Shown here piece by piece: positions 1 through 20,115 of a stretch of 27,164 nucleotides of DNA. The position numbers and the translations under genes are program-made. Source of the DNA: a virus; IMG/VR virus record IMGVR_UViG_3300043466_002688, positions 1 through 27,164 of that record; one strand, 5' to 3'. Positions within the stretch are counted from its first letter, which is position 1. Each line of letters begins with the position of its first letter. The notes under the pieces are model-generated. The model was given only the letters and a program-made list of their open reading frames with translations, did not search any database and had not been told where the DNA came from.

Positions 1-1035
1 ACAATCAACCTCAACCATAGTATTCAAAGACCCACAACTACCTGTATAAACCCTTATTTCTGTATCAAAATTGGTTGAATTATTACAAGTAGAAGCAATT
101 AAATTCTTATCTGTCCCTGTTATTTTATACCAAACATTATTCGATTGAGTAGCACAACTTGACGTACTAGTAGGTACATCAGAAGTTGAACCTATGGTGG
201 AAACAAGACCACTCGAATATGGTGTAGTTATTGTTGTTGCATTTGAACAAAAATCATTATTGTTAGGAGCGCCAGTATATGTCCAAATAAAAATTAATCC
301 TGATGTCGGATAACAAGTACCATTACTGGTGAATCTACAAGTATGTGCATTTGATGTTCCGGCTGTGGTTCCATTAGGCGCTCCCCAATTTGGAGAAGCA
401 TCTGGAACTGAGTTTGTCAATCTCCTTGTGTTGTAGTCCGCGTTGGTTGTACCCCTTAAACCAACTTGTGGTTGATATGTTGTACTATTGGCGATAGTTG
501 TCATATTACCATAAACTACTCTAATATTACCAGTTGATTTTTCAATTCTAATTTGAAATGAAAAACGTTCCGTACTACTTTGAAGATACCTTGCACAATT
601 TTGCCATTGAAATACTACCTCTGAACCTAAATCTTCCCACCTTCTTTCATAGAGTTGTGAACTTATTGCGGTACTTCTTAAATCCATACCCAAAGCGGAA
701 ATTACACCCGCCGCACCACTATTTGAAGAGATTGGGCCAGTAACCCCATTTCCTGTTGTTGTAGTTGTTGGATTTAACCACAATGAACCATCCGCGGTCA
801 TATTAACGGATGTTATGGTTGAACCATTAAATACAAATTGTGAGCCACTTGATAATGTAACACTACTACCATCAGTATCGTATGATGTGACACCACCAGT
901 AGTTGTTACCAACTGAACCCCACCTGTTATTGGTGTATATGTACCTGTAGTTTCACTAAAAGTATAAACGGAAGAAACTTGTGAATTAATGGCACAACTT
1001 ATTAAGAATGATAATATGAAAATTATTTTTTTCAC
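1..1035 (-). CDS. Secreted beta-rich surface/adhesin-like protein, N-terminal 345 residues (partial)
   Basis: An open frame of 345 codons with no stop, running off the left edge. The start is a GTG at 1035-1033; no ATG lies in frame before the upstream gene's stop. The protein opens with a Sec signal peptide (MKKIIFILSFLISCAINSQ), followed by about 230 residues of Thr/Ser/Gly/Asn-rich beta sequence with the look of flavobacterial secreted proteins. From about residue 255 there is a module with NDFCSNA, VWYKITG, FDTEIRVYTGSCGSL and a final Asp-x-Cys pattern. The large secreted protein at 24739 carries the same module. It starts 26 bases after the endonuclease gene upstream and is probably cotranscribed with thyA. 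A host-interaction or surface role is inferred; a tail-fibre role is possible but the signal peptide argues for export. Confidence 0.8.
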   Translation of the reverse strand, partial: MKKIIFILSFLISCAINSQVSSVYTFSETTGTYTPITGGVQLVTTTGGVTSYDTDGSSVTLSSGSQFVFNGSTITSVNMTADGSLWLNPTTTTTGNGVTGPISSNSGAAGVISALGMDLRSTAISSQLYERRWEDLGSEVVFQWQNCARYLQSSTERFSFQIRIEKSTGNIRVVYGNMTTIANSTTYQPQVGLRGTTNADYNTRRLTNSVPDASPNWGAPNGTTAGTSNAHTCRFTSNGTCYPTSGLIFIWTYTGAPNNNDFCSNATTITTPYSSGLVSTIGSTSDVPTSTSSCATQSNNVWYKITGTDKNLIASTCNNSTNFDTEIRVYTGSCGSLNTMVEVDC

Positions 1036-1061
1036 GGTTTTCCCTTTATTGTAAATATGAA

Positions 1062-1844
1062 TTAATTTGATAAAGGTGCTGATATTTTAGGGTGTGATTG
1101 ATAGTTTTCGTATTTTTTATTTTTAGATTTTATTCTCCATAAAATAGTTGGTGATGGAATACCTGTCTTTCTCGACGCTTCCGTCAAACTCTCATAAAAA
1201 ATATTATCAATTTCAACTTGTGTCATATTAGTTGGTTTTTTACCTTTTCTTTTTTCACTCAATTTCTTTTTAGTCTCTTCAGAGTGTTGTTTACCGAAAA
1301 ATGGGTTATCAGGTCCATTTCTTTCATACTTAATATGTTCCATACATCTTTTTGCTCCCTGACTAATTTTTTTACCACAAACTTCACAATTAGAAATCGA
1401 TATACCGCCCTTCCAATTTGGGTTAGTCTCCATCGGTTGGGAGTGTTTTTCTTTTTTCTCCTCATCGGTCATTGTGTTATATCTTCTTTTAACCGATTCG
1501 GTCATTTTTTCAACAATCTTATCTTTATTAGGGTTTTTTGTTAAGTTATCCCCACCACTTGATTTTAAACCAATATTATATTCTGGATTTAAATCTAAAT
1601 AATATTGTTCTTTTTCAAGTAAAACCATTTCATCACATTCCTCAACAACCTCAAATAAAAAATTTTTCTCACCATACTTATCCCAAGCTCTTTGTAATAT
1701 ACAATTTATATGGATATTATTTTTTAATTCTCTTTTATGTCTACTTAATCTCTTTTCAATTTGTTTTGATGAACCATAATAACATTTACCATTAACCAAA
1801 TTTTTAATTCTATATATTCCAATCATACGACTACCATTTAACAT
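1062..1844 (-). CDS. GIY-YIG homing endonuclease with a ThyA-like C-terminal tail
   Basis: An I-TevI-type homing endonuclease. The GIY-YIG nuclease domain is at the N-terminus (IGIYRI near residue 8, CYYGSS near 21, an Arg/His-rich KRLSRHKREL helix, and the NPEYNIG end motif with the catalytic Glu region). Next come NWKGG and a CEVCGKK zinc-finger-like segment, a NUMOD3 repeat (NPFFGKQHSEETKKKLSEKR) and a helix-turn-helix of the IENR1 type (EASRKTGIPSPTILWRIKS). The last residues, YQSHPKISAPLSN, match the ThyA C-terminus just upstream (YQSHPTIKLPLSN). The family normally ends soon after the helix-turn-helix, so this tail looks fused on. Met7 (at 1826) may be the true start because relatives usually begin MIGIY. 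The gene follows thyA by 43 bases and probably lies in its transcript. Confidence 0.9.
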   Translation of the reverse strand: MLNGSRMIGIYRIKNLVNGKCYYGSSKQIEKRLSRHKRELKNNIHINCILQRAWDKYGEKNFLFEVVEECDEMVLLEKEQYYLDLNPEYNIGLKSSGGDNLTKNPNKDKIVEKMTESVKRRYNTMTDEEKKEKHSQPMETNPNWKGGISISNCEVCGKKISQGAKRCMEHIKYERNGPDNPFFGKQHSEETKKKLSEKRKGKKPTNMTQVEIDNIFYESLTEASRKTGIPSPTILWRIKSKNKKYENYQSHPKISAPLSN

Positions 1845-1877
1845 AAATATCTACAAAATGTATAAAGTTAAATGGTA
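1832..1877 (-). repeat. 11-bp perfect inverted repeat around the endonuclease start codon
   Basis: TACCATTTAAC and GTTAAATGGTA (1832-1842 and 1867-1877) are perfect complements separated by 24 bases. In the thyA-endonuclease transcript this forms a hairpin whose 3' arm begins at the last base of the first ATG. It could hide the start of the endonuclease on the long transcript, as hairpins do for T4 homing endonucleases; that role is inferred. Confidence 0.55.
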
Positions 1878-1887
1878 ACCCTAAGAA

Positions 1888-2964
1888 TTAATTAGAAAGT
1901 GGTAATTTTATTGTTGGATGACTTTGATAACCCTCGATTTGAAAATCGGTTATTAAACAACTATTCAAAAATTCGTCAATACCTTCGTTAAAATTAACTT
2001 GATTAGAAATAACTAATTTTGGTAACTCAAAAGGTTCTCTTGTTAATTGTTCTTTAATTCCATCGATTTGGTTTAGATAGATGTGACAATCACCCATATT
2101 ACTAATCAATTCATCAGGAACCATATTAACCATTTTCGCAATTATCTCTAATAGTAATGCGTAGGATGATATATTGAATGGGGTCCCCAACGGAACGTCT
2201 TGACTTCTGGCGTTGTACATTAAAGAGATTGCTCTGGTTGGAATGTTATAAGTATCAAATAGTCTATTCCATCCACTCACGTCACTTGGGAATATATCTT
2301 TGTTCCAATTTGATTTGTTATATGAATCCATCCGTTCTTGTTCACTTAACTCTCTTGTATAAACTTGAAATCCATAATGACAAGGTGGAAGTACCATTTG
2401 ATCGAGCTCGGCTGGGTTCCACGCTGAGACAAGTAGGCGTCTTGAGTCGGGATTTGTTTTGAGGTCGTTGATGAGGTTTGCGATTTGGTCGATACCTGGT
2501 TTAAGAACTTTTTTAGGTACACCAATCGTAGACCATTCTCCCCAATTACGCCACTGATGCCCATACACGGGTCCTAATTCACCCCACTTATTAGCAAACT
2601 CATCATCTGTTTTGATTCTATCAATAAACATTTCTCTTGATAGTGGTATTGGCGCACCGCCTGGAGAGTAAGATTTCCACCATTTTTCATAGTTCTTATA
2701 AGCATCCCCATCCCAAATATGACAACCATTGTCAACTAAAAACTTAATATTGGTATCACCTCTTAAAAACCATAACAATTCAGTTACCATAGTTTTCCAA
2801 GCCATCTTTTTAGTTGTAAGTAAAGGAAACCCATCACTCATTTTATGACGTATTTGTCTTCCAAATACTGAGATAGTTCCAGTTCCTGTTCGGTCACCTT
2901 TTGTTACTCCATTATCCAAAATGTCTTGGAGTAGGTCTGCGTATTGTTTATCTAGTTTGTTCAT
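1888..2964 (-). CDS. thyA: Thymidylate synthase (ThyA)
   Basis: Folate-dependent conversion of dUMP to dTMP. Family motifs in order: DRTGTGT near residue 25 (phosphate-binding Arg), PLLTTKKMAWK near 48, ELLWFLRGDTNIKFL near 62, WGELGPVYGHQWR near 127, the Arg pair in DSRRLLVSAWNP (175-176), the catalytic Cys195 in LPPCHYGFQVY, RSQDVPLGTPFN near 253, and a GDCHIYLNQ segment in place of the usual GDAHIY. At 359 residues it is longer than the 264-residue E. coli enzyme, mainly through insertions near 90-125 and 205-240. The start at 2964 (MNKLDKQ) is preferred; an in-frame ATG at 2979 lies two bases after the promoter box. It is the first gene of a minus-strand unit. A typical nucleotide-supply gene of large phages. 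Confidence 0.96.
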   Translation of the reverse strand: MNKLDKQYADLLQDILDNGVTKGDRTGTGTISVFGRQIRHKMSDGFPLLTTKKMAWKTMVTELLWFLRGDTNIKFLVDNGCHIWDGDAYKNYEKWWKSYSPGGAPIPLSREMFIDRIKTDDEFANKWGELGPVYGHQWRNWGEWSTIGVPKKVLKPGIDQIANLINDLKTNPDSRRLLVSAWNPAELDQMVLPPCHYGFQVYTRELSEQERMDSYNKSNWNKDIFPSDVSGWNRLFDTYNIPTRAISLMYNARSQDVPLGTPFNISSYALLLEIIAKMVNMVPDELISNMGDCHIYLNQIDGIKEQLTREPFELPKLVISNQVNFNEGIDEFLNSCLITDFQIEGYQSHPTIKLPLSN

Positions 2965-2981
2965 AAGTTTTAATACCATAA

Positions 2982-3013
2982 CAAAGATAGTTATAAAAAA
3001 AAGTAAAATCAAA
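2982..3013 (-). promoter_or_regulatory. Bacteroidota-type promoter of thyA
   Basis: On the minus strand, TTTG (3013-3010), 20 bases, then TATCTTTG (2989-2982). This is a full match to the Bacteroidota housekeeping consensus TTTG/TAnnTTTG. Confidence 0.7.
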
Positions 3014-3027
3014 TTAAATTTTGAAAC

Positions 3028-3034
3028 TATTTAT
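3028..3034 (+). promoter_or_regulatory. TATTTAT element before the HExxH peptidase gene
   Basis: Context AAACTATTTATCTATT, ending 5 bases before the ATG at 3040. One of 14 sense-oriented copies in the window; see the finding on two promoter classes. Confidence 0.4.
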
Positions 3035-3039
3035 CTATT

Positions 3040-4203
3040 ATGAGAGATTTAATTAGAAGAATATTAAAAGAAGCCGTTGGTGTTCCTGAAGGTGTTTTAG
3101 AATCGTCCGAAATATTATATAATGAAATATATAATGAATTACAAACCATTCCTAATGAATTAGACAATGAAATGGAATTTGATATTGAAACTGGATTATC
3201 TATATCCGACTTATATATTACTGATGTTTTTTTAACAATAACGTTTGAAGAATATGATAAATTATCAGATGTTGAGTTTTATTCTATGGCGGTTGCTCAA
3301 AGAACGATTTTTAATAATAAAATTTTAAAATTAAAAGCTAAAATAGATAAAGGTCAAATTAATATGATTATTAATTTGGCAGGACCTGAAGGAACAACAA
3401 AAAAAGAAATTATAGAATTTTTTGAAAAAAAATCTAAGGAGATTACTAGTTCTTTGTCTCACGAATTAGGTCACTCATATAACAATTATAAGAAAAAATA
3501 CAAATCAATAAAAGAAGTTCCGAGTTATGCCGGAATTGCCTCAACATCTTTTCCGTTCTACCCAATACAGAAATTTTTACATTACGTTTATTTTACTCAT
3601 GCGGTTGAAAATTTGGTTAGACCAATTGAGGTTTCTTCGCTTATGAGGTCTAATGAAATAGATAAAGAAGGTTTTTATGATTTTCTAACAAACAATGAAA
3701 CTTATAAAATGTTAAAGAAGATTAATAATTTTTCTTATGAAAAAATGAGAGAAGAATTAAAACAGGATTCAAAAGCCGTTAAAATTTTCTTAAAGAGAGT
3801 TGGTGTAGAAAATGTTGAATCATTTAAAACCGATGATGAATTAGTTGACGAATTGCTAAGAATTGTTTATATTAATTTAACCAATAATACAATCACCAAA
3901 GTTAAAGAAATGATGACAACAAGTGATTTTGAAGAAATTATTGGTTTTATAGGTAAAAAACAAAAAATATTTTATGATATGATTGATTATTTTAATAAAT
4001 TTGATAATAATATCTTAGGATTTTATTTAAATGAAGAAAAGAAAATGAAAATTGTATCATCAAAAATTATGAAAAGATTATCAAAACTTTGGTCTCTTGC
4101 CAAAGAAAAAAATTCATCAATTAAGAATTGGGAATTACATCACAAAATAAATAAAACAGGTGAACAATTTGAAACTGAGTTGAAGTATAGACGTAGAAAG
4201 TAA
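3040..4203 (+). CDS. Tagged putative zinc metallopeptidase (HExxH)
   Basis: A 387-residue protein I cannot assign to a named family. It begins MRDLIRRILKEAVGVPE, a basic amphipathic helix ending in Leu-Lys-Glu-Ala, which resembles the T4 prohead-protease cleavage rule ([IL]-x-E before a small residue). A zinc-peptidase motif HELGHSYNNY lies at residues 141-150 (His141, Glu142 and His145 as the presumed ligands and base). About 40 residues on, HAVENLVRPIEV could supply the third Glu ligand of a gluzincin-like site. The C-terminal half is helical and Lys-rich, ending in RRRK. No signal peptide. Divergent from thyA across a 75-base gap. A peptidase carried in the virion is the working inference. 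Confidence 0.7.
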   Translation: MRDLIRRILKEAVGVPEGVLESSEILYNEIYNELQTIPNELDNEMEFDIETGLSISDLYITDVFLTITFEEYDKLSDVEFYSMAVAQRTIFNNKILKLKAKIDKGQINMIINLAGPEGTTKKEIIEFFEKKSKEITSSLSHELGHSYNNYKKKYKSIKEVPSYAGIASTSFPFYPIQKFLHYVYFTHAVENLVRPIEVSSLMRSNEIDKEGFYDFLTNNETYKMLKKINNFSYEKMREELKQDSKAVKIFLKRVGVENVESFKTDDELVDELLRIVYINLTNNTITKVKEMMTTSDFEEIIGFIGKKQKIFYDMIDYFNKFDNNILGFYLNEEKKMKIVSSKIMKRLSKLWSLAKEKNSSIKNWELHHKINKTGEQFETELKYRRRK

Positions 4204-13418: not shown

Positions 13419-14294
13419 ATGACAAGTTTTAAAAGAAATTGTCCGAAATGTGAATGTGAAATAACATATAAAAATAAGTATAATATGTTAAATGCGGAAA
13501 AAAAATATTCTAAATGTAAAAGTTGCGGTTTAAAAGAAATAATGAACGATGAGACCAAAAAAAGAATGTCAGAAAGAGTTAAAGGAAAAAATAATCCAAT
13601 GTATGGTAAGTTTGGTGAACTGAACCCATTTTTTGGTAAAAAACATACTGAAGAATCAAAAAATAAAATGGTCGAATCGAGGGATTATGAAGTTTATAAA
13701 ACTGAAGAATTTAGGAAAAAAATTTCAAATTTAACTAAAGGAGAGAATAATCCAATGTATGGTAAATCAGTTTATACTATTTGGGTTAAAAAATATGGAA
13801 AAGAAATTGCCGATAAAAAGTTAATCGAACTAAAAAATAAACAATCTTTATTAAATAGAGGTAATAAAAATCGTATGTTCGGTAAGCCAGCCCCAAAAAA
13901 TTCTGGAAATGGGATTTCTGGATGGTACAAGGATTGGTTTTTTAGAAGTTTACTAGAGTTGAGTTATATGATATATGTGATTGAACGTTTTAATTTACCT
14001 TGGGAAAATGGTGAATCTGATAAATATAAAATCCCATACGAAATTGATGGTATTAATAAAAACTACTTTCCTGATTTTGTAATAAATGAAAAATATGTAA
14101 TTGAGTGTAAACCAAAAAATTTATGGAGAACAAAAATTAATGAAATAAAGTTTAAATTCGCCGAAGAATTCTGTAATAAAAATAATTTGATTTTTAAAAT
14201 TAAAGATATTATTAAGATTAAAAAACCCGAATTAATGAGATTAATATCCTATGGGGATGTTGTATTGACAAATAAATGGAAGAATAGAATATAG
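13419..14294 (+). CDS. NUMOD3 homing endonuclease with a PD-(D/E)XK-like nuclease domain
   Basis: 291 residues. N-terminal zinc ribbon with CPKC and CKSC (residues about 8-45). Three NUMOD3-type DNA-binding repeats follow (NPMYGKFGELNPFFGKKHTE, ENNPMYGKSV, KNRMFGKPAPKNSG). The C-terminal nuclease has a helix with Glu (FFRSLLELSYMIYVIE), PWENG, then YFPDFVINEKYVIECKPK giving Asp219 and Glu229-x-Lys231, the PD-(D/E)XK triad. This is the architecture of mobile nucleases that insert next to, and home into, conserved phage genes. It stands head-to-head with the broken kinase gene (60 bases between starts), which makes the kinase Walker A region a plausible target. Confidence 0.85.
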   Translation: MTSFKRNCPKCECEITYKNKYNMLNAEKKYSKCKSCGLKEIMNDETKKRMSERVKGKNNPMYGKFGELNPFFGKKHTEESKNKMVESRDYEVYKTEEFRKKISNLTKGENNPMYGKSVYTIWVKKYGKEIADKKLIELKNKQSLLNRGNKNRMFGKPAPKNSGNGISGWYKDWFFRSLLELSYMIYVIERFNLPWENGESDKYKIPYEIDGINKNYFPDFVINEKYVIECKPKNLWRTKINEIKFKFAEEFCNKNNLIFKIKDIIKIKKPELMRLISYGDVVLTNKWKNRI

Positions 14295-19623: not shown

Positions 19624-20115
19624 TTATATAAATGAGTTTTTAAATTCTTCCCAAACCGATCTAATGTTTGGATTTAAAATGTCGTGAAGTATTGAGGGTT
19701 CGTGTGGGATACATTTTAAAATCATATTAGCTTCTTCAGGTGTCCTATCATTTTTAAATGCGTTACATTTACTACAACAAGTCACTAAATTTGTCCAAGT
19801 ATTTTTTCCACCTCTTGATTTTGGGATTATATGATCGATGGTCAAATTTTCATTTTTACCGCAATAAACACACTCGTAACTATCTCTTTTTAAGATTCTT
19901 TCTCTATTTATTTTTAATGTCCTACTACGATATTTTATGTAGTAAAATAAACGGATAATCAACGGTTTAATGTAAGTTTTTTCGCCCGCAAGAATTGGTT
20001 TGTCTGAGGACTTTAATATTTCGGCCTTACCACTAATAACTAAATTAAAACCTCTATAAATTGAGGTAACATTTAAGGGAGAATAATCTGAGTTTAAAAC
20101 TAAAACTTTATCCAT
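19624..20115 (-). CDS. HNH endonuclease
   Basis: 163 residues. The zinc-bound beta-beta-alpha nuclease lies at about 82-130: CVYC (Cys82, Cys85), TIDHIIPKSRGGKNTWTNLV with catalytic Asp94-His95 and the Asn of TNLV, then CCSKCNAFKNDRTPEEA. The N-terminal MDKVLVLNSDYSPLNVTSIY is typical of stand-alone HNH proteins found in both Bacteroidota chromosomes and their phages, so it may serve packaging, repair or homing. The sequence does not decide between them. Confidence 0.9.
   Translation of the reverse strand: MDKVLVLNSDYSPLNVTSIYRGFNLVISGKAEILKSSDKPILAGEKTYIKPLIIRLFYYIKYRSRTLKINRERILKRDSYECVYCGKNENLTIDHIIPKSRGGKNTWTNLVTCCSKCNAFKNDRTPEEANMILKCIPHEPSILHDILNPNIRSVWEEFKNSFI

Follow-up and report, generated by a model that had tools for sequence, protein, structure and literature searches.

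Mobile open reading frames (ORFs) that replace the end of a host gene have been described in fungal mitochondrial DNA (mtDNA): in atp6 of Allomyces macrogynus, in atp6, atp9, cox2 and nad3 of Glomus sp., in atp9 of Rhizopus and in cox2 of Mortierella (PMC3630166). As set out in the part of that report drawn on here, a divergent inserted 3' end is followed by an endonuclease ORF and then by the displaced native end, which matches the gene end of insert-free relatives (PMC3630166). We analysed a virus stretch of 27,164 nucleotides (IMG/VR record IMGVR_UViG_3300043466_002688; 'the window' is this whole stretch), in which the thymidylate synthase gene, thyA, is followed by a GIY-YIG homing endonuclease gene whose end resembles that of thyA. 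The order is the same here, foreign end, endonuclease ORF and displaced native end, and the fungal mitochondrial elements that a first-pass annotation of this DNA had named as a precedent do match it in anatomy (PMC3630166). One Glomus case (atp9) also involves a GIY-YIG enzyme (PMC3630166). The displaced end matches insert-free relatives here too, L099 and the pair L083/L211 not showing this (loci of the comparison below carry L numbers). Unlike the fungal type, as that source describes it, the arrangement analysed here is found in a set of environmental phages, at thyA and at many loci; the displaced end continues the endonuclease reading frame as its C-terminus, a hairpin lies at the endonuclease start codon, repeats can be stacked, and a mirror form occurs at the start of the gene. 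We consider it likely that the 3' end of thyA was the entry point of a free-standing homing element, which left the old end on the endonuclease and a recoded end on thyA.

I-TevI of phage T4 has its GIY-YIG and I-TevI-type DNA-binding domains, as well as its host gene, in common with the window endonuclease, and I-TevI and other T4 enzymes share a start-codon hairpin with the leaders described below (PMC2988022). Unlike I-TevI, no intron was found here, and the window endonuclease sits behind the thyA stop, at the 3' end. The T4 seg and mob enzymes are free-standing, lie between genes and cleave hundreds to thousands of bases away; mobE splits nrdA, mobA splits gene 60, and translation of segB and mobE is controlled by hairpins (PMC2988022). 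They are likewise free-standing phage GIY-YIG or HNH enzymes, some of them hairpin-controlled, but gene-end replacement as seen here is not described for the T4 enzymes in the portion of that account used here (PMC2988022). The near-identical terminal repeats of site-specific integrative elements that use a gene 3' end as attachment site (att) are absent, the two thyA ends of the window agreeing at 28 of 42 bases. A search of titles and abstract openings in the open-licence literature found no phage report of gene-end replacement, and the arrangement, known from fungal mitochondria, appears to be new for phages.

The thyA locus and its second thyA end

Both thyA and the GIY-YIG ORF are carried by the minus strand of the window, with the following features.

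1888..2964, minus strand: thyA, thymidylate synthase, present copy, 358 aa (Pfam Thymidylat_synt, E 7.7e-97; PHROG 160)
1888..1929, minus strand: present, recoded thyA end, YQSHPTIKLPLSN and stop (recoding pattern across 35 loci), matching the endonuclease-free L225 at 27 of 42 bases and the endonuclease tail at 28 of 42
1824..1884, minus strand: leader between thyA and the endonuclease, with hairpin arms at 1868-1884 and 1826-1841, the second extending to the start codon
1840..1851, minus strand: ATATTTAT motif in the hairpin loop, a possible promoter
1062..1826, minus strand: I-TevI-like GIY-YIG homing endonuclease fused to the old thyA end, 254 aa (Pfam, PHROG 314, PDB)
1587..1823, minus strand: GIY-YIG catalytic domain (Pfam, residues 8-86 of 260)
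1257..1316, minus strand: NUMOD3 DNA-binding motif, the better of two stretches (Pfam, residues 177-196)
1122..1256, minus strand: I-TevI-type DNA-binding domain (Pfam I-TevI_DNA-bd, residues 197-241 of 260)
1062..1103, minus strand: captured former thyA end, YQSHPKISAPLSN and stop, forming the endonuclease C-terminus and stop codon (39 of 42 bases as in the native thyA end of L225)

The thyA ATG is at 2964, a longer version of the ORF beginning with TTG farther upstream. In its longest form the endonuclease ORF runs from 1844 to 1062 (260 aa). The seventh codon, ATG 1826-1824, is its likely start, giving 254 aa instead of 260, because the preceding codons sit in a conserved hairpin arm and relatives begin at an equivalent MIGIY. 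The endonuclease contains GIY-YIG (37.9 bits, cut-off 22.6), I-TevI_DNA-bd (28.8 against 27) and NUMOD3 (39.2 against 20.4) domains by Pfam, the I-TevI zinc finger falling below its cut-off (15.7 against 27). It belongs to PHROG 314, homing endonuclease (E 1e-39), and matches both solved parts of I-TevI, nuclease and DNA-binding (PDB 1i3j, 1mk0, 1ln0). The setting is that of a phage, as judged from the virus record, the phage protein families and relatives on viral contigs and, for thyA, also in Flavobacterium phages. Genome contigs held a single relative of the endonuclease, in Peptoniphilus, 39% identical across residues 1-125.

The likeness of the two ends was reported in the first-pass annotation, and each of its figures was obtained again: the last 15 residues, EGYQSHPTIKLPLSN in ThyA and ENYQSHPKISAPLSN in the endonuclease, are identical at 11 positions, whereas the DNA disagrees at 18 of the final 48 bases, including those of the first Ser codon, AGT for thyA against TCA for the endonuclease. 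The tail had also been said to begin past the DNA-binding part, where related proteins end. This agrees with the Pfam I-TevI_DNA-bd match ending at residue 241, the tail starting at about residue 246 of 260, and untailed relatives ending within a few residues of the same NY. The junction NY(Q) is also the endogenous ending of such relatives (KKYEKYQYN or KFDNYKYKD before the stop), and two or three of the 11 identities may therefore be of non-ThyA origin.

For comparison, IMG/VR was scanned with thyA, the endonuclease, an alignment of the endonuclease C-terminus and two further thyA genes, the matches listed being up to 80 loci for each. The resulting sample comprised 125 distinct thyA 3' ends from IMG/VR and a few phage records, identical 3' ends having been removed. 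A related endonuclease lay within 300 bases downstream at 39 of these 125 loci, T5-like phage SP01 and the distant L137 included. A position matrix built from the 119 ends of LSN type was scanned up to 3 kb past all 125 thyA stops, and gave 25 matches above 11 bits, 10 of them fused tails and 15 unfused remnants. Two controls, the antisense strand of this DNA and the upstream DNA to at most 3 kb, gave no match even above 8 bits, which rules out chance similarity of the tails.

I-TevI resides in the td intron of T4 (PMC2988022), and the endonuclease ORF is continuous with the displaced end, as it would be if a group I intron of the td type had degenerated near the end of thyA and its ORF ran into the second exon. 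But thyA has its own stop ahead of the insert. Searches of Rfam with the window and with L090, L083, L100, L131, L050 and L038 gave nothing at gathering score, the lone match in window 900-3200 being to a snoRNA at E 1.3, which is chance level. On the strength of these searches and of the thyA stop, a group I intron was ruled out; its probability is negligible.

Origin of the endonuclease tail

The viral collection was scanned at the DNA level with a degenerate pattern for HPKISAPLSN plus stop, a rare string, which matched six viral contigs. One, L224, is near-identical to the window (99.97% over the 6,083 bases compared), and the other five are copies of one endonuclease-free thyA end. The native end in these copies is TFKLENYQSHPKISAPLSN, and the thyA frame of one of them, L225, is open across 416 residues. 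This native end is identical to the window endonuclease tail at 39 of 42 bases and to the window's own thyA end at 27 of 42.

A second case is provided by L090, whose endonuclease tail, YQSHGTIKAPLSN with its stop, is identical to the native thyA end of the endonuclease-free L035 at 42 of 42 bases, an unusual Gly included, as against 29 of 42 for L090's own thyA end. Downstream, L090 and L035 are 98.6% identical across 1,200 bases, from the first base past the stop. Judged by sequence, this pair supplies a comparison of an empty and a filled site of the same lineage on the downstream side.

Further pairs point in the same direction. The tail of L095 matches the end of L194 at 35 of 42 bases, compared with 29 for its own thyA end, and the two share the thyA body and downstream gene; that of L119 matches L062 at 39 of 42 (own end 25), where the downstream DNA is unlike; and that of L100 matches L062 at 33 of 42 (own end 24), with an alike downstream start (78% over 114 bases). 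The rare KIEAPLSN end is common to L101, in which thyA is broken off, and to L195 and L196 (33 and 34 of 42), as is the downstream gene. When compared with 49 endonuclease-free ends, the fused tails were on average nearer than the adjoining thyA end in 9 of 10 loci. Among the fused loci these 10 retain a thyA end, L084 and L101 do not, and L116 was identified afterwards.

The first-pass annotation had proposed that an element inserted near the thyA stop and that the original thyA tail was captured as the endonuclease C-terminus, and had suggested that endonuclease-free relatives be compared with both ends. Run on L225 (39 against 27 of 42) and on L090/L035 (42 against 29), this check favours the tail over the present thyA end. 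Capture is supported by the window, by L090/L035 and by 9 of the 10 fused loci, and insertion near the stop by the endonuclease-free relatives and the downstream flank shared by L090 and L035. We conclude from these alignments that the last 13 residues of the endonuclease and its stop codon are encoded by a former native thyA end. Two related ends in succession could also reflect a local tandem duplication of the thyA end that later diverged. However, the second end is the native end of another phage, at 39 of 42 bases in the window or 42 of 42 in L090, and the first is not. A recent duplication had already been discounted on first inspection; L090/L035 and the HPKISAPLSN scan contradict local duplication altogether, and it is scarcely credible.

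A fused, in-frame tail is present in 13 loci, 12 of them distinct in DNA and found by pattern, plus L116. In L116 (1590-2417) the upstream thyA is divergent (Pfam E 4.8e-61) and ends in TKLNSKLELAI, and the endonuclease still carries NYQSHPTIKAPLSN. This repeated fusion in frame is what would be expected if the ThyA-like tail functioned as protein, for example by mimicking the ThyA C-terminus. But the tail is variable where the DNA-binding domain ahead of it is conserved, many relatives have no tail, and the endonuclease of L020 terminates at a stop of its own, with an out-of-frame thyA remnant behind it. The tail is thus probably not a working part of the endonuclease, and mimicry is very improbable.

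Recoding of the thyA end and apparent exchange between loci

That the present thyA tail is recoded, as had been suggested from the window alone, has statistical support across the sample. Ala at the fifth residue from the thyA end was found in none of 36 loci occupied by the endonuclease and in 52 of 80 others (Fisher, p 9e-13). The test left out L107, L110, L111, L112, L113, L114 and L137 (outgroup or odd) and sequences with identical last 75 bases. The 80 comparison loci still include L128 (a 35-residue thyA remnant), L131 (its thyA interrupted by an endonuclease gene) and four contigs that extend less than 800 bases downstream; with these six removed, the counts were 0 of 36 and 49 of 74 (p 7e-13). 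Grouping by kinship gave the same picture, Ala occurring in 0 of 9 occupied-only and 10 of 21 empty-only groups at 70% identity (p 0.013), in 0 of 20 and 39 of 57 at 75% (p 2e-8), and in 0 of 27 and 46 of 68 at 80% (p 1e-10).

The recoding reaches silent sites (Ile ATT to ATA, Leu TTA to CTT, and the third base of Pro) and is strongest in one block. Against a consensus of the 52 Ala-type ends, a selection that by construction fixes two base positions of the Ala codon, the Ala-type ends themselves scored a mean of 36.8 of 42. Twenty displaced tails, 10 of them fused and 10 unfused, averaged 36.0, these being the matrix matches above 30 bits out of the 25, a choice that favours consensus-like tails, and the 35 occupied thyA ends averaged 30.3 (Mann-Whitney against the displaced tails, p 6e-8). 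When unselected, the 15 unfused matches ranged from 26 to 41 and the 10 fused ones from 30 to 39 of 42.

The endonuclease also appears to be exchanged between loci. In L001 and L082 the endonucleases are 89% identical and thyA is 65% identical across 83 residues. Over 26 loci, endonuclease identity correlated weakly with thyA-body identity (r 0.31, Mantel p 0.026), as expected with exchange; the correlation peaked at 0.44 in one stretch of the thyA 3' third and was 0.0-0.3 elsewhere. The comparison of 561 locus pairs, given further below, also dropped the truncated L077 and L156 and pairs with fewer than 110 thyA residues. The fused endonucleases have a single C-terminal type, SPTILWRI...KKYENY with small variations, which includes L099 and L100. 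Their enzymes are 44% identical to that of the window overall and 89% over the last 75 residues, a contrast that fits domain shuffling.

The leader between thyA and the endonuclease is conserved as a structure. In 22 aligned leaders (21 distinct), a 16-pair helix reaches the endonuclease ATG with 94.6% of cells paired, compared with 28-55% in slid controls. Nine cells are changed on both sides, and the covariation score was reached by 0 of 500 shuffles, whereas the number of pairs with a both-side change, three, was reached by 53 of 500. The 22 leaders were picked for one common layout, the start search having failed at eight loci and misplaced L020; the leaders of L098, L171, L186, L191 and L205 have different folds. 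The hairpin, as predicted from these leaders, probably blocks endonuclease translation from thyA read-through transcripts. In T4, late transcripts of hairpin-controlled endonucleases are without the hairpin (PMC2988022). The loop motif ATATTTAT (1840..1851) lies 16 bases ahead of the endonuclease ATG, and 9 of its 16 copies in the window are within 40 bases of the ATG of an ORF of at least 70 aa, a count made with no distance control. This suggests a promoter, as in T4 (PMC2988022), and ATATTTAT in the hairpin loop is a possible phage promoter. The exact 9-mer ATATTTATA is weakly over-represented in the window (6 against 2.67 expected). Copies of ATATTTAT were also noted 14-19 bases before start codons, for example at window 1850-, 4714+, 9264-, 12697- and 14358+.

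A wider hotspot at thyA

The phenomenon is wider than had been noted earlier, and involves other genes, stacked tails and the thyA start. The 15 unfused remnants are spread over 12 loci. A family endonuclease lies ahead of the remnant in L020, L059, L171 and L186, and another nuclease in L166 and L200; in L050, L149, L154, L159, L183 and L210, no endonuclease query matched behind thyA. L166 has two genes between a recoded end (KFPLSN) and an old one (PPIKAPLSN), one with a NUMOD3 match and sub-cut-off matches to HNH and I-TevI_DNA-bd and the other small; the space between recoded and old ends in L200 is likewise taken up by a small gene and one of GIY-YIG type. Two consecutive remnants were found in each of L149, L159 and L166, as expected of successive insertions, one of each pair being weaker (12-28.5 bits). 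In SP01, where the endonuclease overlaps the thyA stop, no tail remnant was seen by eye in about 120 bases behind, the LSN-type matrix not being apt there.

Immuto 3-5A and immuto 2-6A, both cultured phages of Flavobacterium, share 96% identity ahead of the hotspot and 99% past it. At the hotspot itself their small genes are not the same, and in both phages a remnant of 6-8 thyA codons comes next. The 3-5A remnant is below the matrix cut-off length, and 2-6A is outside the matrix-scan sample. The differing small genes, from thyA to the next shared gene, are at these positions.

L112, 4273-4556
L221, 4264-5006

A small gene starting MENYK recurs behind thyA or its endonuclease in L166 (4858-5088), L059, L186, L155, L157 and L042; in L059, L166 and L186 the C-terminus of the small gene is translated from the thyA remnant in a different frame.

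A mirror form is found at the thyA start. In L038 (1731-3123; copy L039) and L050 (2173-3123) the first 25 thyA codons break off after GVEKKDR and are followed by a GIY-YIG-like ORF and then by a complete thyA in which TRNGQT or TRNGDT replaces the common RTGTGT. An extra 87-codon ORF precedes the GIY-YIG-like ORF in L038, and the GIY-YIG match of L050 is below the Pfam cut-off. The TRNG start occurs in 12 of 125 thyA rows, some truncated, an upstream endonuclease being detected in 2 of the 12. In L131 (about 2300-3360) a GIY-YIG gene with an I-TevI-type zinc finger lies inside thyA, with DTxLGLxFN repeated on either side. L128 (2775-2883) has a 35-residue thyA remnant downstream of an endonuclease and several small ORFs, the last 25 residues of which equal the thyA end of L169.

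The hotspot could instead be passive, with modules swapping by recombination in the thyA body and illegitimate joining in the short old end, and with the endonuclease a passenger whose real target lies elsewhere. Six of the 12 remnant loci lack an endonuclease match behind thyA, and the near-identical immuto phages differ by distinct small genes, each with its short tail remnant. The right junctions of the remnants vary in position and often overlap the TAA stop, the recoded end tracks the thyA body, and the cleavage sites of known free-standing homing endonucleases of phages are hundreds to thousands of bases away from the genes themselves (PMC2988022). On the other hand, a passenger would not explain why a downstream endonuclease goes with loss of the Ala-type end (0 of 36 against 52 of 80, and by clusters), why the recoding includes silent sites and is strongest in one block, or why at least two nuclease layouts occur at this spot, with a third if the sub-cut-off HNH match in L166 is counted. 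We regard a passive hotspot as unlikely.

Several observations nevertheless weigh against invasion by a homing element. Non-Ala ends occur in 28 of the 80 loci without the endonuclease; L166 (HNH-like, below the Pfam cut-off) and L200 (GIY-YIG) among them hold another nuclease, and in most of the others no nuclease was seen behind thyA. In mixed kinship clusters the endonuclease-free members are all non-Ala in 3 of 4, 3 of 4 and 2 of 2 cases (70, 75 and 80%), and L064 keeps Ala despite a NUMOD3/weak GIY-YIG gene behind thyA. The 39 loci with a downstream endonuclease comprise 10 with a fused tail, 4 with an unfused remnant and 25 with none within 3 kb or before the contig end. Of 561 pairs, 115 have an endonuclease that is more similar than the thyA body, and 446 do not. 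The recoded end correlates with the thyA body (r 0.52) more than with the endonuclease (r 0.23); a strict cassette, with recoded end and endonuclease moving only as a unit, is thus not supported. The end may often be co-converted independently of the endonuclease, or resistant ends may spread by themselves. Remnants also stand behind non-endonuclease genes beside un-recoded thyA ends, in L050 (which has an endonuclease at the thyA start), L154, L183, L210 and the immuto phages, so that the endonuclease either acted from another phage or is unneeded.

The individual comparisons have exceptions of the same kind. The gene behind the window endonuclease differs from that behind the endonuclease-free match, and the L225 match therefore bears on the origin of the tail sequence, not on an empty and a filled site of the same lineage. 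The thyA of L090 comprises only about 70 codons; it is like L035 up to FELP and unlike it in the final 30 or so codons, a pattern consistent with, though not proof of, conversion of that segment. The tail and own thyA end are close for L095/L195 (29 and 27 of 42) and show no difference for L083/L211 (29 and 28). The tail of L099 is no nearer to endonuclease-free ends than its thyA end, and that of L083 is barely nearer.

Elsewhere in the window, an ORF at 13419-14294 (plus strand) has three NUMOD3 stretches and a TnsA-like nuclease domain (Pfam), and is possibly a homing endonuclease with an unusual nuclease. A free-standing HNH endonuclease gene (Pfam) lies at 19624-20115 (minus strand).

For the invasion of thyA by a homing element, we propose that the I-TevI-like enzyme would cleave a thyA that is not protected, at a place close to the YQ/SHP codons or to the ATTAAAGCACC (I-K-A-P) block. 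I-TevI cleaves at a CNNNG motif, from which no site was assigned here. Repair templated by an occupied thyA would bring the recoded end into the recipient together with the hairpin leader and the endonuclease ORF, and this ORF would fuse in frame with the recipient's own thyA tail, so that each new host would provide the last residues and stop codon of the enzyme. The recoded end would preserve a whole ThyA and probably no longer be cut; the displaced copy would probably be safe from cutting because the preceding thyA body is gone. Cleavage, resistance to cleavage and mobility of the element are what we infer. More broadly, thyA ends may be landing pads for gene-end-replacing elements, the open endonuclease ORF borrowing its end and stop, with repeated rounds, by other genes too, stacking tail fossils and the mirror form replacing the thyA start; this broader proposal we hold to be evenly balanced between right and wrong.

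The locus would extend a mechanism known from fungal mitochondria to phages, where many genomes with and without the insert permit base-by-base comparison. It suggests a route by which a selfish gene may enter a coding region with neither intron nor intein, by supplying a replacement gene end, and it offers a layered record of gene insertions behind one conserved gene. Near-identical cultured Flavobacterium phages that differ exactly at this site open the question to experiment. If the proposal is true, homing endonucleases would be a general engine adding genes behind a conserved phage gene while leaving that gene unbroken.

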